A DNA stretch of 39,235 nucleotides from an uncultured Veillonellaceae bacterium (GTDB lineage Bacteria; Bacillota; Negativicutes; Selenomonadales; Selenomonadaceae): NCBI GenBank assembly GCA_900316275.1, contig ONCF01000028.1, positions 1 to 39,235 on the forward strand, in the 5' to 3' direction. The position numbers and the translations under genes were made by a program. This document shows positions 24,499-28,207 of the stretch, one piece after another. Below the pieces are notes generated by a model. That model saw nothing but the letters and a program-made list of their open reading frames with translations. It was not told where the DNA came from and did no database searches. The first letter of the stretch is position 1. Each line of letters begins with the position of its first letter.

Positions 24499-24536
24499 AC
24501 ACACATTACCCCATCCCTAAATCAACATGAATAAAC

Positions 24537-24575
24537 AACCGCCAGCAGCGTGTGGTGACGCCGCTGGCGGTTTTG
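24537..24575 (+). terminator. Terminator after cstA
   Basis: AACCGCCAGC (24537-24546) pairs with GCTGGCGGTT (24563-24572), with an inner GCGT/ACGC extension, followed by T4. Confidence 0.85.
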
Positions 24576-24615
24576 CTATGTTTTGGACGAGTCAATTATT
24601 GCAGGGGCAATCGTC

Positions 24616-24644
24616 TTGCACTTTCGCGTATTTCGCCGTAAAAT
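24616..24644 (+). promoter_or_regulatory. Promoter of the Rpn-like gene
   Basis: TTGCAC (24616-24621), a 17-base spacer and TAAAAT (24639-24644). It lies just upstream of the chosen start and rules out the more distant in-frame start at 24583. Confidence 0.6.
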
Positions 24645-24666
24645 AATAGTAAAGGAGATGAGGCGC

Positions 24667-25509
24667 GTGCCGAAATACAAGGACTGGTGGGACTTGACCT
24701 TCACGGACGACTATATGTTCAAGTGCGTGATGAAGAACAAGCAAATCTGCATCAACACGTTGAACCGTTTTCTGCCGTGGCATATACGCGACATCGCCTA
24801 TTATGAGGATGAGAAACCGCTGCAGAGCCACTATGATGGCAAGGGTGTCCGTCTGGATGTCTACGTCGAGGACGATGTGCACCGGTCGTATGACCTCGAA
24901 ATGCAGGTACGGAAAATCCGCGAACGAACATCGCTTAATCCGGCAGACACGCCGGAGCCGTCCATTGTGCTGGCCAAACGCATGCGTTTCTATCAGGGCG
25001 AGCTTGATGTTGACCAACTCGTGAAAGGCGGGTTGTATTCCGAGTTGCGGCCAACGGTCATTATGTTTTTCTGTCCCTTCAAGGTTTTCGATGGTTCACG
25101 GCATGTTTACAGGTTTAAGACAGTATGCGTAGATGATCCTAATCTCGTATTTCCCGATGAAGTCGAGAAAATCGTCATTAGCTCTAGGGGCCGCATGAAT
25201 GACGTTTCATCGGATGTCCAATCTTTCCTCGAATATCTGGAGGGCAAGGTCAGCGATGATCCGCTGGTGAAGGAGATTGAAGAGGAAATCCATACAGTAA
25301 AGCAGCAAAAGCAAGAGGAGCGTGATTATATGAGCTACCTGATGAATATTCGCGAGGAGCGCGAAGAGGCAAAAGCTGAGGGCAAAGGCGAAATGATTAT
25401 CAATATGCTTAAAGAGCATATGCGTCTTGACACCATTCAACACCTTTCGGGCTGGACAGCGGACCAGATTAGGGCACTCGCTCAGAAAAACGGCTTGGTA
25501 GTTGAATAA
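24667..25509 (+). CDS. Rpn-like PD-(D/E)XK nuclease-family protein (PDDEXK_2 type)
   Basis: 280 residues from GTG 24667, placed after AAAGGAGATGAGG; ATG 24658 is in frame but lies within that site. The family opening is seen in DLTFTDDYMFKCVM, then a PD-(D/E)XK core: Asp in GVRLDVYVED and the E-x-Q element in YDLEMQV, followed by RMRFYQGELD and RPTVIMFFCPF. The last 70 residues are charged helices with an EREEAKAEGKGE-like linker and a short C-terminal helix pair, as in Rpn proteins. These were annotated as transposases; known members are recombination-promoting DNA endonucleases, and some are linked to phage defence. It is a single gene between two terminators, just left of the tRNA-Arg element. 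Confidence 0.82.
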   Translation: MPKYKDWWDLTFTDDYMFKCVMKNKQICINTLNRFLPWHIRDIAYYEDEKPLQSHYDGKGVRLDVYVEDDVHRSYDLEMQVRKIRERTSLNPADTPEPSIVLAKRMRFYQGELDVDQLVKGGLYSELRPTVIMFFCPFKVFDGSRHVYRFKTVCVDDPNLVFPDEVEKIVISSRGRMNDVSSDVQSFLEYLEGKVSDDPLVKEIEEEIHTVKQQKQEERDYMSYLMNIREEREEAKAEGKGEMIINMLKEHMRLDTIQHLSGWTADQIRALAQKNGLVVE

Positions 25510-25575
25510 ATCATGTCATTTACGGCTTTTGCCAGTATGCTCCTAGGCAAAGAGACAGCATGCGAGTAGACGCAC

Positions 25576-25613
25576 AAAACCGGCGCAGCCAAATTCAGCT
25601 GCGCCGGTTTTAA
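25576..25613. terminator. Strong terminator after the Rpn-like gene
   Basis: A perfect 14-bp stem, AAAACCGGCGCAGC (25576-25589) with GCTGCGCCGGTTTT (25598-25611), has an eight-base loop and A/T tracts on both sides. Before insertion of the element it may also have terminated leftward tRNA-Arg transcription (inference). Confidence 0.85.
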
Positions 25614-25668
25614 ATAACTGCTAGAGAAAACTATCACCAAGCATGGTTATAGGCGTGTCTCTGACAGT

Positions 25669-25881
25669 TTAGTTACCAATGGTGCGATTGGTATCGCTAG
25701 GCAGGATGCCAACCAGCACGGCTATGGAGATAGTCACCAGATTGCCAACCGTGCCGAACACGATGTAGCTCAGTGCATATTCAGTCTTGCTTTCCTTTTC
25801 CGTTTGGCCTAGTATCGTGGCCGCTTGCAACGCCAAAAAGCCCGGCACCAGCAAAAACACAACCGTCAAGTATTTTTCCAT
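25669..25881 (-). CDS. Small membrane protein, function unknown
   Basis: 70 residues with AGAAGGTG about seven bases before the ATG. Two hydrophobic segments are seen, about residues 5-25 (LTVVFLLVPGFLALQ) and 38-60 (ALSYIVFGTVGNLV...), joined by a charged turn. The opening LVPGF recalls DUF6338-type phage or prophage proteins, but they are longer and the link is weak. The last residues TNRTIGN are encoded by the left 13-bp direct repeat and flanking host DNA, so the C-terminus probably changes when the element is circular: there the frame would run on for more residues. It starts inside the element and faces away from the 174-aa gene. Confidence 0.55.
   Translation of the reverse strand: MEKYLTVVFLLVPGFLALQAATILGQTEKESKTEYALSYIVFGTVGNLVTISIAVLVGILPSDTNRTIGN
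25680..25692. repeat. Left attachment-site copy (13-bp direct repeat)
   Basis: TGGTGCGATTGGT is identical, in the same orientation, to 27947-27959. Read on the minus strand it is the last ten bases of tRNA-Arg followed by CCA. It is the expected displaced tRNA end left by integration. Confidence 0.75.
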
Positions 25882-25937
25882 ATTGGCACCTTCTTTCTAG
25901 TGTCATTGTACCATAGTTTCAAGAATAGGAGGCTATC

Positions 25938-26462
25938 ATGTTTGATTTCTTGTTTGACAAAAACCTAAAGGCCGTGCGGGCTCTCAATAAAGAGGCCGCC
26001 CGCCAGCGTGTCATGGATGCCGACGCATACGCCAAGGTCATGGCGATGTGCAAGGGGCACACGGGCATGTTCTACCAGGCCGAGCGGCAGTGTGCCTACG
26101 CCCTGCACGTGCCCTGGCTCGTCCGGCAGGGTAAGCTGCCCGTGATGGAGTTCCCGAGCGCTATCCATGCCCTCCCCGGCGAGCAGATGCGGGGCAAGCT
26201 CGGCGCTACTCCTGCCGGGGAGGACTTGGTCGGCTCCGTCTACGTCTCCGACCGCCGCGTCATCCTCCTGCGCGCCGATGGGCTCGGGTATGCGTGGGGC
26301 TCCGAGGATATCCTCCGCGTCGTCCTCGACCGCTACGGTGAGGTACGGCTTTTCGACACGCATGGCGGATGCACGGTGTTCAACCTGTTTATGCCCGAGT
26401 ACCGTTTCGCCTTTAGTGCCCTCGTTGGCTTGATGATGAGCGAGGAGGTGAGCTGCGAATGA
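25938..26462 (+). CDS. 174-aa protein of unknown function coupled to the recombinase gene
   Basis: AGGAGG lies about eight bases before ATG 25938. The N-terminal half is charged and probably helical (NKEAARQRVMDADAYAKVM). The C-terminal half is beta-rich: GSVYVSDRRVILLRADGLGYAW, then VRLFDTHGGCTVFNLF, a pattern like bacterial PH or GRAM domains, though this is only a visual match. There is no signal peptide or membrane segment. Its stop overlaps the recombinase start (ATGA), so both are made together. A role as a recombinase accessory factor, such as a directionality factor or expression regulator, is inference from position. Confidence 0.75.
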   Translation: MFDFLFDKNLKAVRALNKEAARQRVMDADAYAKVMAMCKGHTGMFYQAERQCAYALHVPWLVRQGKLPVMEFPSAIHALPGEQMRGKLGATPAGEDLVGSVYVSDRRVILLRADGLGYAWGSEDILRVVLDRYGEVRLFDTHGGCTVFNLFMPEYRFAFSALVGLMMSEEVSCE

Positions 26463-27961
26463 AACGTGCAGCTCTCTATGCCAGATACTCGTCCGACTCC
26501 CAGCGCGTCGAAAGTATCACCGCCCAGCTGCGCCGCGGGCGTGAGTATTGCGCCGCGCACGGGCTCATGATCGTCAAGGAGTACCGCGACGAGGCTTTCT
26601 CCGGCACGAATACGAACCGCCCCGGCTTCCTCGCCATGCTCGACGATGCCAAGCGGCATTTGTTCGACGTGCTGGTGGTCCACAAGCCCGACCGCTTTGG
26701 GCGGAATGAGTTCGACTACTACCGCAACCGTGCCAAGCTCGAGCAGGATGGTGTGGATCTCGTTTTCACGGGGCAGCAGTTCGATATGAGCACGCCCGAG
26801 GGCAGACTCATGGAGAACCAGCTGGTAGGTTTCGCCGCGTTCTACTCGCGCAACCTCGCGAACGAGGTCAGGAAGGGTCAGCGCGAGAACGCCTACGAGG
26901 GCAAGTGCACGAACGGGGCCCTCGCCTATGGCTACAAGACGGACAGGGAAAAGCACATCATCATCGACGAGGAACGCGCCCCGGCTATCCGGCAGATATT
27001 TCAGATGTACGCCGACGGGCATGCCTACGCCGAGATTTTAGCCTGGCTGCGTGCCCACGGCTACAAGACGGCGCGCGGCAACGACTTTGGCAAGAACTCG
27101 CTCCATGATATCCTCGTCAACCCGCGCTACATCGGTACGACGGTGTTCGGGCGCAACGTGCCCATGAAGAACGGTCGCCGCAACAACCACCGCGCCATCC
27201 ACGATGGATGCCTCGTCATCGAGCACGCGCACGAGGCCATCATCGACCGCCCGCTCTGGGATAAGGTCGCCGCCCGCATGGAGCGGAACAAGAACAAGGG
27301 CGCCCGCTTCACCGCCAAGCACCCTTATCTGCTCTCCGGGCTCATCGAGTGCGGCGTATGCGGTGCGGCCATGGTTGGCACGACGAACCGCAAGAGCGGC
27401 ACCACCAAGTTCAAGCGCTACTACCGTTGCAACCAGCGCGCGCGCAAGGTCGCCAAGACGGTTTGCGGGAACTCGCTCGTACCTGCCGATGATATCGAGC
27501 GTTTTGTTTGGCAGCGCATCGAGACCGTGCTCACTGAGCCCGCATTCATCGACCGCATCGCTGGCCGCGTGCGTGAGGCCTACGCCAGCCTTGGCACGAA
27601 CCGCAAAAAGCAGCTCGCGCAGCTCCGCCCGCGCCGCGACAAGCTCCGCTCCCAGCTTGACCGCCTCTATGATATGGTCGAGGATGGCGAGCTCGACGAG
27701 TTCGACCGCGCGCGTATCGCCAAGGTCAAGCAGTCCCTGCGTACCTGCGAAGCCGAGCTCGCGGATGCCGAGCAGCAGCCCGCCATCCCGCTCCTCACCG
27801 ACGAGATGATCCGCGCGTACGTCGCCAAGTACCTCAAGACACAAAAAGACGGCGCCGACAACCGCCGCGCCGTTATGGAAAAACTTGTAGAGAAAGTCAC
27901 TGTCTCGCCTGACTCCGTGGGCATTCTCTACAAAGTTGGCTTTGACTGGTGCGATTGGTGA
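26459..27961 (+). CDS. Large serine recombinase (site-specific integrase)
   Basis: 500 residues. The N-terminal resolvase domain has ALYARYSSDSQ with the nucleophilic Ser (11 or 12), the arginine-rich active site around DRFGRNEFDY, and the long helix TPEGRLMENQLVGFAAFYS. A recombinase domain follows (residues about 155-260: GYKTDREK, RQIFQMYADGHAY, LVNPRYIGTTVFGR). A zinc-ribbon has CGVC and YYRC...C at about 300-340, and a coiled coil at about 380-435. The C-terminus is VGFDWCDW. The last codons and the stop lie in the attachment repeat and tRNA-Arg, antisense to the tRNA. In an excised circle the frame would read two more codons (Tyr-Arg) before a TAG. It should carry out strand exchange between attP and the tRNA-borne attB. 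Confidence 0.92.
   Translation: MKRAALYARYSSDSQRVESITAQLRRGREYCAAHGLMIVKEYRDEAFSGTNTNRPGFLAMLDDAKRHLFDVLVVHKPDRFGRNEFDYYRNRAKLEQDGVDLVFTGQQFDMSTPEGRLMENQLVGFAAFYSRNLANEVRKGQRENAYEGKCTNGALAYGYKTDREKHIIIDEERAPAIRQIFQMYADGHAYAEILAWLRAHGYKTARGNDFGKNSLHDILVNPRYIGTTVFGRNVPMKNGRRNNHRAIHDGCLVIEHAHEAIIDRPLWDKVAARMERNKNKGARFTAKHPYLLSGLIECGVCGAAMVGTTNRKSGTTKFKRYYRCNQRARKVAKTVCGNSLVPADDIERFVWQRIETVLTEPAFIDRIAGRVREAYASLGTNRKKQLAQLRPRRDKLRSQLDRLYDMVEDGELDEFDRARIAKVKQSLRTCEAELADAEQQPAIPLLTDEMIRAYVAKYLKTQKDGADNRRAVMEKLVEKVTVSPDSVGILYKVGFDWCDW
27947..27959. repeat. Right attachment-site copy (13-bp direct repeat)
   Basis: TGGTGCGATTGGT, the complement of the tRNA-Arg 3' end with CCA; identical to 25680-25692. 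It codes the last four residues of the recombinase and the first base of its stop. Confidence 0.75.
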
Positions 27962-28023
27962 GAGTCGAACTCACGACCCTTCGCTTAGGAGGCGAATGCT
28001 CTATCCAACTGAGCTACAACCGC
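27947..28023 (-). tRNA. tRNA-Arg, anticodon CCT
   Basis: On the minus strand the gene folds into a standard cloverleaf: acceptor GCGGTTG/CAATCGC, D arm GCTC...GAGC, anticodon stem TTCGC/GCGAA with loop CTCCTAA (anticodon CCT, reading AGG), T arm GTGAG-TTCGACT-CTCAC, discriminator A and an encoded CCA. It is the integration target of the element on its 3' side. Confidence 0.95.
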
Positions 28024-28034
28024 ATATGTACTTC

Positions 28035-28063
28035 ATTATAGCAAATTGGAGCCCTGCGGGCAA
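28035..28063 (-). promoter_or_regulatory. Promoter of tRNA-Arg
   Basis: On the minus strand TTGCCC (28063-28058), a 17-base spacer and TATAAT (28040-28035), 12 bases before the tRNA. The tRNA is therefore still expressed after integration. Confidence 0.75.
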
Positions 28064-28104
28064 GATAAACTCGCCTATGCACGTCGACTTTGGTCTTGGC
28101 AAAT

Positions 28105-28134
28105 TTGACGCGACATAGATAAATGTGATAAAAT
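28105..28134 (+). promoter_or_regulatory. Promoter of the 3D-domain gene
   Basis: TTGACG (28105-28110), an 18-base spacer ending in TGA (extended -10), and TAAAAT (28129-28134). Confidence 0.6.
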
Positions 28135-28207
28135 GATAACGTTACAATATAAATACGTTCGTAAAGACGCGACAACGCGCTGGTTTTATCGGTCAGGAGG
28201 GGTTCGT

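Follow-up and report, generated by a model that had tools for sequence, protein, structure and literature searches.

We propose, with a probability of about 70%, that a 2,267-bp unit at the gene for tRNA-Arg(CCT) is the remnant of a prophage that was deleted from within a DUF6338-like gene to its far attachment core. The unit lies in the window, by which we mean the whole stretch of 39,235 nucleotides that was analyzed. Its integrase is a large serine recombinase (LSR) at a tRNA 3' end, and comparison with relatives gives good support for a group of phage serine integrases for which the 3' ends of tRNA or tmRNA genes are recurrent targets. The main interest is this group of integrases, not the size of the unit; the 2.3-kb unit is probably just a relic.

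The unit lies between two exact copies of a 13-bp direct repeat (TGGTGCGATTGGT), both on the plus strand, at 25680-25692 and 27947-27959. Read as its reverse complement, this sequence matches the 3' end of tRNA-Arg(CCT). ARAGORN and Rfam agree in placing tRNA-Arg(CCT) at 27947-28023 on the minus strand, so the right repeat (the predicted attR core, within the tRNA gene) is the 3' end of the tRNA, including the CCA. The left repeat is the predicted attL core. The tRNA gene is identical to its counterparts in three congeneric species at 77 of 77 bp, but the similarity is lost straight after the CCA, which implies that the element supplies the rebuilt end of the tRNA gene and that the tRNA is kept intact.

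The initial annotation claimed that exact 13-bp repeats of the tRNA-Arg 3' end plus CCA bound the unit, and that a chance match of 13 bases is very unlikely. Both claims stand: both copies were located, the tRNA was called independently, and only about 0.00015 exact copies of the 13-mer are expected on one strand within 5 kb to either side. Furthermore, in the whole 2.19-Mb genome, the 13-mer is found at these two sites only, even if one mismatch is allowed. We also considered that the repeat arose by chance and that the LSR is unrelated to the tRNA, given that a genome this large should contain about 0.07 exact copies of any particular 13-mer. But the partner is 2.27 kb off, is in direct orientation, and begins exactly at the CCA, and relatives of the LSR repeat the arrangement with other tRNA sequences (see below). 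We rejected this extremely improbable reading on the grounds of the genome-wide uniqueness of the pair and the comparative pattern in relatives.

We noticed two other features of this region. In three congeners (L039, L040, and L041, compared with 24499-28190 of the window), tRNA-Arg(CCT) has the opposite orientation relative to the flanking 3D-domain and substrate-binding genes, and a beta-N-acetylglucosaminidase-like gene comes after it (we assigned this family by eye); the window has an inverted tRNA and lacks this gene at that place. Also, a gene of the Rpn family (recombination-promoting nuclease/putative transposase, 24583-25509) lies between a carbon-starvation-type transporter and the left core, and contig C31 of the same genome carries a second copy (L026, 86% DNA identity).

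The LSR has 500 amino acids and is encoded at 26459-27961 on the plus strand, with its stop codon within the tRNA gene. As had been claimed, it is a large serine recombinase: it is full length, with the resolvase, recombinase, and zinc-ribbon domains in a single protein (PF00239, PF07508, and PF13408). It matches the phage integrase family PHROG 95 (1.5e-124), and its sequence matches the integrase structures of TP901-1, TnpX, and A118. In an eight-member alignment, R9, S11, Q23, D78, R79, and R82 are invariant, and the catalytic motif is kept. Judging by its domains and conserved residues, the protein belongs to the phage-type large serine integrases. It deviates at 4 of 37 near-invariant positions (36 sequences; most relatives deviate at 0-2), which may mean that its decay has begun.

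We gathered relatives of the LSR, at about 32-46% identity, from sets of 100, 189, and 380 genomes, and examined 35 loci. In 15 of these, a tRNA gene is tail-to-tail with the 3' end of the LSR gene. One more locus (G049) has a tRNA gene inside the extended open frame of the LSR, and three have a tmRNA at the LSR's 3' end, for a total of 19 of 35 loci with a tRNA or tmRNA. The target genes are Arg-CCT, Arg-CCG, Phe, Leu-TAA, Leu-GAG, Glu, Ala, and tmRNA. Against an assumed background of 0.6% per gene, the probability of 19/35 would be about 1e-33, which is an indicative figure only because the loci are not independent. On a tree with 36 rows, the tRNA/tmRNA label needs 8 changes, versus a mean of 12.1 for shuffled labels (7 of 500 shuffles were as low). 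The window's LSR falls in a subclade of seven, and six of these have a tRNA. The seventh (G045) has an Arg-CCG-like 3' end (CCGAGCGCACCA, read by eye) in the sense orientation in the 3' region of the LSR. Viral contigs (L118, L119, and others) share this feature; the loci with the tRNA-end-like string in the sense orientation in the 3' region of the integrase include L117, L118, L119, L150, and L003. With this orientation, the tRNA would be predicted to lie at the prophage's other end.

For four of the relatives, we found a second copy of the tRNA-end core: TGGTGCGCCTGGT, 15.0 kb away, in G049; TGGTGCCGAGGAC, 17.2 kb away, in G071; 14 bp, 33.2 kb away, in G009; and 12 bp, 38.2 kb away, in G639. 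An attL partner was not found in the available sequence for G037, G048, G081, G698, G668, G663, G679, or G104. The initial annotation was to be refuted by homologues that are never bracketed by tRNA repeats; for the LSR, these four relatives are bracketed. Together with the 19 of 35 loci, they bear out the claim that a serine recombinase inserted at the 3' end of tRNA-Arg. One other genome (G036) has two nearly identical copies of the LSR (L006 and L019), both with an in-frame TGA; perhaps this is a broken integrase that was duplicated.

Relatives of the LSR are also found in phage. A scan of viral contigs with the family alignment yielded 72 relatives, the more distant of which belong to other groups of LSRs. 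The closest viral relative that we checked (L117, 46% identity) shares its 37-kb contig with genes for baseplate, tail, and reverse transcriptase, and another 46% relative (L150) is accompanied by replication and DNA-polymerase genes on a contig of 35 kb. At 17 of 52 viral loci and 13 of 33 genome loci, the LSR is followed by an antisense T-arm motif, as compared to 0/52 and 0-2/33 for in-gene controls. (The reverse transcriptase, L117:4917-6047, belongs to PHROG 1423 and is beside tail genes; it is possibly part of a diversity-generating retroelement.) Within the unit itself, we found no phage structural or replication genes, only the integrase, an orphan gene, and the DUF6338 stub, so we infer the unit's phage origin indirectly; the absence of such genes is expected of a remnant.

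We reconstructed attP for three sites (the window, G049, and G071). In all three, the best even inverted repeat is centered between core positions 11 and 12. Compared to shuffles, the symmetry scores of the single sites have P values of 0.09 (window), 0.67 (G049), and 0.06 (G071), so it is the agreement between sites alone that is persuasive. The common center implies a crossover at the junction of the T stem and the acceptor stem, and the symmetry points to the central GG there (25690-25691 in the left core and 27957-27958 in the right core). Our prediction also explains why the core is about 13 bp: to restore the tRNA, the shared sequence need extend no further than from the crossover to the CCA.

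The arms of the predicted attP have some symmetry as well. On the plus strand, GCCAAC at 25708-25713 is the candidate half-site of the left arm and mirrors GTTGGC at 27935-27940, which is the candidate half-site of the right arm and lies inside the 3' end of the integrase gene. That is, GCCAAC is present in both arms of the window's site at outward positions 18-23. The position is conserved in relatives: CAAC is found at 20-23 in most of their right arms, despite differing reading frames. The match between the arms has P = 0.005 in register, or 0.09 if any center is allowed. Also, the left arms of the window and G049 have CCAACCAGC in common, which 0 of 5000 shuffles reach. (A position-weight matrix of the whole half-sites was dominated by the letters of the tRNA and was uninformative, so we compared the element-side positions instead.)

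The LSR's frame is usually open as far as the core and continues past it, on the antisense strand of the target RNA gene, so the C-terminus should change upon integration. Most of the relatives that use a tRNA or tmRNA have read-through C-termini made of tRNA letters (L056, L060, L044, L045, L059, L061, and L052). In the window, the C-terminus of the LSR would be WCDWYR in the circular form and WCDW in the integrated form; in G071, it would be RTRTLI and RTGIEPVR; and in G049, the protein would have 519 amino acids in the circular form and 580 in the integrated form. Similarly, in the serine-integrase ICEs of streptococci that integrate in rumA, attR is in the 3' end of the integrase gene and integration alters the C-terminus (PMC4701971). 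Because the integrase's frame enters the antisense of a tRNA, integration-dependent control of the enzyme is directly testable. A more ambitious idea is that the group swaps C-termini, using antisense codons of the RNA gene, as a switch between the free and integrated states, and that the window's unit is a still-excisable mini-island that formed when the integrase trimmed its own element at a pseudo-site. We consider this combination very unlikely.

A deletion is indicated by the broken gene at the left end of the unit. A 70-amino-acid ORF (25669-25881, minus strand) had been described as a small membrane protein. However, it matches just the first ~63 residues of homologues from six genomes of the same bacterial family, which have 216-257 amino acids, and one of these homologues scores above the cut-off for PF19865 (DUF6338). 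Once these longer homologues surfaced, we dropped the idea of a genuine small protein: this is the N-terminus of a DUF6338-like membrane protein that is cut at the repeat. The match stops at 25693, the first base inside the left core, and this truncation point relative to the intact members of the family is the proposed deletion point. We searched for the missing C-terminal part across the whole genome and it is absent.

Intact DUF6338-like genes are found in loci of the same bacterial family that resemble prophages. G225 has a full-length copy between an XRE-type repressor and an LSR of another type, from which it is divergent. G178 and G148 instead have a tyrosine phage integrase divergent from the DUF6338-like gene; XRE repressor genes lie further in, and apparent host genes lie beyond the integrase. 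In G175, the array begins in the same way. As in the window, then, the DUF6338-like gene adjoins an integrase and is divergent from it (in the window, from the integrase operon). These loci differ from the window in that the DUF6338 gene is full length, with the repressor and more genes beyond it, and the integrases are of the tyrosine type or another serine type; in the window, DUF6338 is cut and is fused directly to the far attachment core. We found no DUF6338-like gene beside the close relatives of the LSR or in viral contigs, which counts against a prophage remnant.

The other gene in the unit is at 25938-26462 on the plus strand and encodes 174 amino acids. Its end overlaps the start of the LSR gene (ATGA), which agrees with the earlier description of a second gene coupled to the recombinase, and translational coupling is predicted. 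Among 100 relatives, 189 family genomes, 398 phylum genomes, phages, plasmids, and viral contigs, we found no credible relative of the 174-aa gene, and Pfam, PHROGs, NCBIfam, and PADLOC gave no family assignment. The weak matches that we opened (L065, L066, L068, L069, and L070) proved to be in, or antisense to, ordinary housekeeping genes. An AlphaFold model of the protein alone had a pLDDT of 41, and we did not use it. The slot directly upstream of the LSR varies among relatives (L043, L046, L056, and L044): it holds DUF4258 with an MqsA-like protein in G049 and Fic proteins in G045 and G037, along with DUF1828/1829 in G037. Because the 174-aa gene sits in this accessory position, we view it as probable prophage cargo. 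The lack of phage relatives, and a GC3 of 0.82 that is equal to that of the host's genes, count against the prophage remnant.

That host-like composition would suit an established cassette, and the initial annotation had suggested a new class of minimal element or satellite. In this scenario, the LSR, the 174-aa protein (as helper or cargo), and a short membrane protein form a complete integrative element that excises as a 2.27-kb circle and relies on a helper for transfer. In its favor, the LSR is full length and has its catalytic motif, both cores are present, and the attP dyad is plausible. But one of the three genes is a fragment that is broken at the core, there is no second copy of the unit in the genome, and no known directionality factor was recognized for it. 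The trio, which was to be sought elsewhere with other cargo, is found nowhere else in the 380 genomes from the class that were searched for the LSR or in viral contigs, and the relatives for which both ends are known are elements of 15-38 kb. Nor did searches of Pfam, PHROGs, NCBIfam, and PADLOC identify a primase, a modifier of capsids or packaging, or a relaxase among the three ORFs. We consider a complete minimal element to be unlikely.

In our preferred reading, the prophage remnant, a temperate phage whose large serine integrase targets tRNA genes would have entered the only tRNA-Arg(CCT) gene at its 3' end. With a crossover at the central GG, the last ~12 bases, as carried by the phage, would have restored the tRNA; the restoration itself is seen in the sequence. 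A later deletion, from the interior of the DUF6338-like gene to the far core, would have removed the repressor, replication, and virion genes and would have left behind the integrase, the 174-aa cargo gene, the DUF6338 stub, and two intact cores. The former prophage and its deletion are thus reconstructed from what is left, and an intact version of the prophage was not found (with one genome per species). Although both cores and the integrase frame persist, the remnant probably has little or no activity left.

The integrase itself may have caused the deletion, via a pseudo-site in the DUF6338 gene. The position of the break, at the core, and the agreement of the new arm with the enzyme's motif make this plausible, and the dyad lends it modest evidence. 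Alternatively, the unit could still be a prophage remnant in which DUF6338 was joined to the left core by ordinary illegitimate recombination, with the fit to a half-site being a coincidence. Short joins are common in prophage decay, and the dyad statistics are weak if any center is allowed (P = 0.09, as above). On the other hand, the break is within a few bases of the core, GCCAAC is at the exact mirror position, and the left arm has its shared sequence with G049. We view an ordinary join as possible but doubtful.

Across the LSR group, the apparent fixed crossover and the gene-rebuilding core of 12-14 bp would make the attachment sites of these LSRs predictable. The sites of serine integrases usually need experiments to find, so this could be useful for building integration tools for Negativicutes-like bacteria. 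We did not find a description of a tRNA/tmRNA-using group of LSRs in the open-access literature, and large databases of islands may already hold its members without comment. As had been noted at the outset, tRNA targets are rarer for serine integrases: a review states that mycobacteriophages with serine integrases stay out of tRNA genes (PMC9262239), and a 2018 paper reports that coding regions are commoner as sites for serine integrases, unlike for tyrosine integrases (PMC6109161). A review of IMEs describes specific serine-recombinase elements that sit within genes (PMC5704250).

The LSR group resembles the large serine integrases of phages (TP901-1, A118, phiC31, and Bxb1; PHROG 95) in its domain layout, catalytic motif, and short core, as well as in its occurrence in phage-like contigs with tail genes, but it targets and restores the 3' ends of tRNAs and tmRNAs. 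It shares with the rumA-integrating ICEs (PMC4701971) the placement of attR and the altered C-terminus; the ICEs target a protein-coding gene, whereas here a tRNA gene is restored and there are no conjugation genes. And like the prophages and islands with tyrosine integrases that are found in tRNA or tmRNA genes (of the Islander/TIGER type), these elements enter and restore the 3' end of an RNA gene. However, they do so with a serine recombinase and with a core of 12-14 bp that runs from the crossover to the CCA, instead of the cores of 25 bp or more of tyrosine integrases (PMC9262239).
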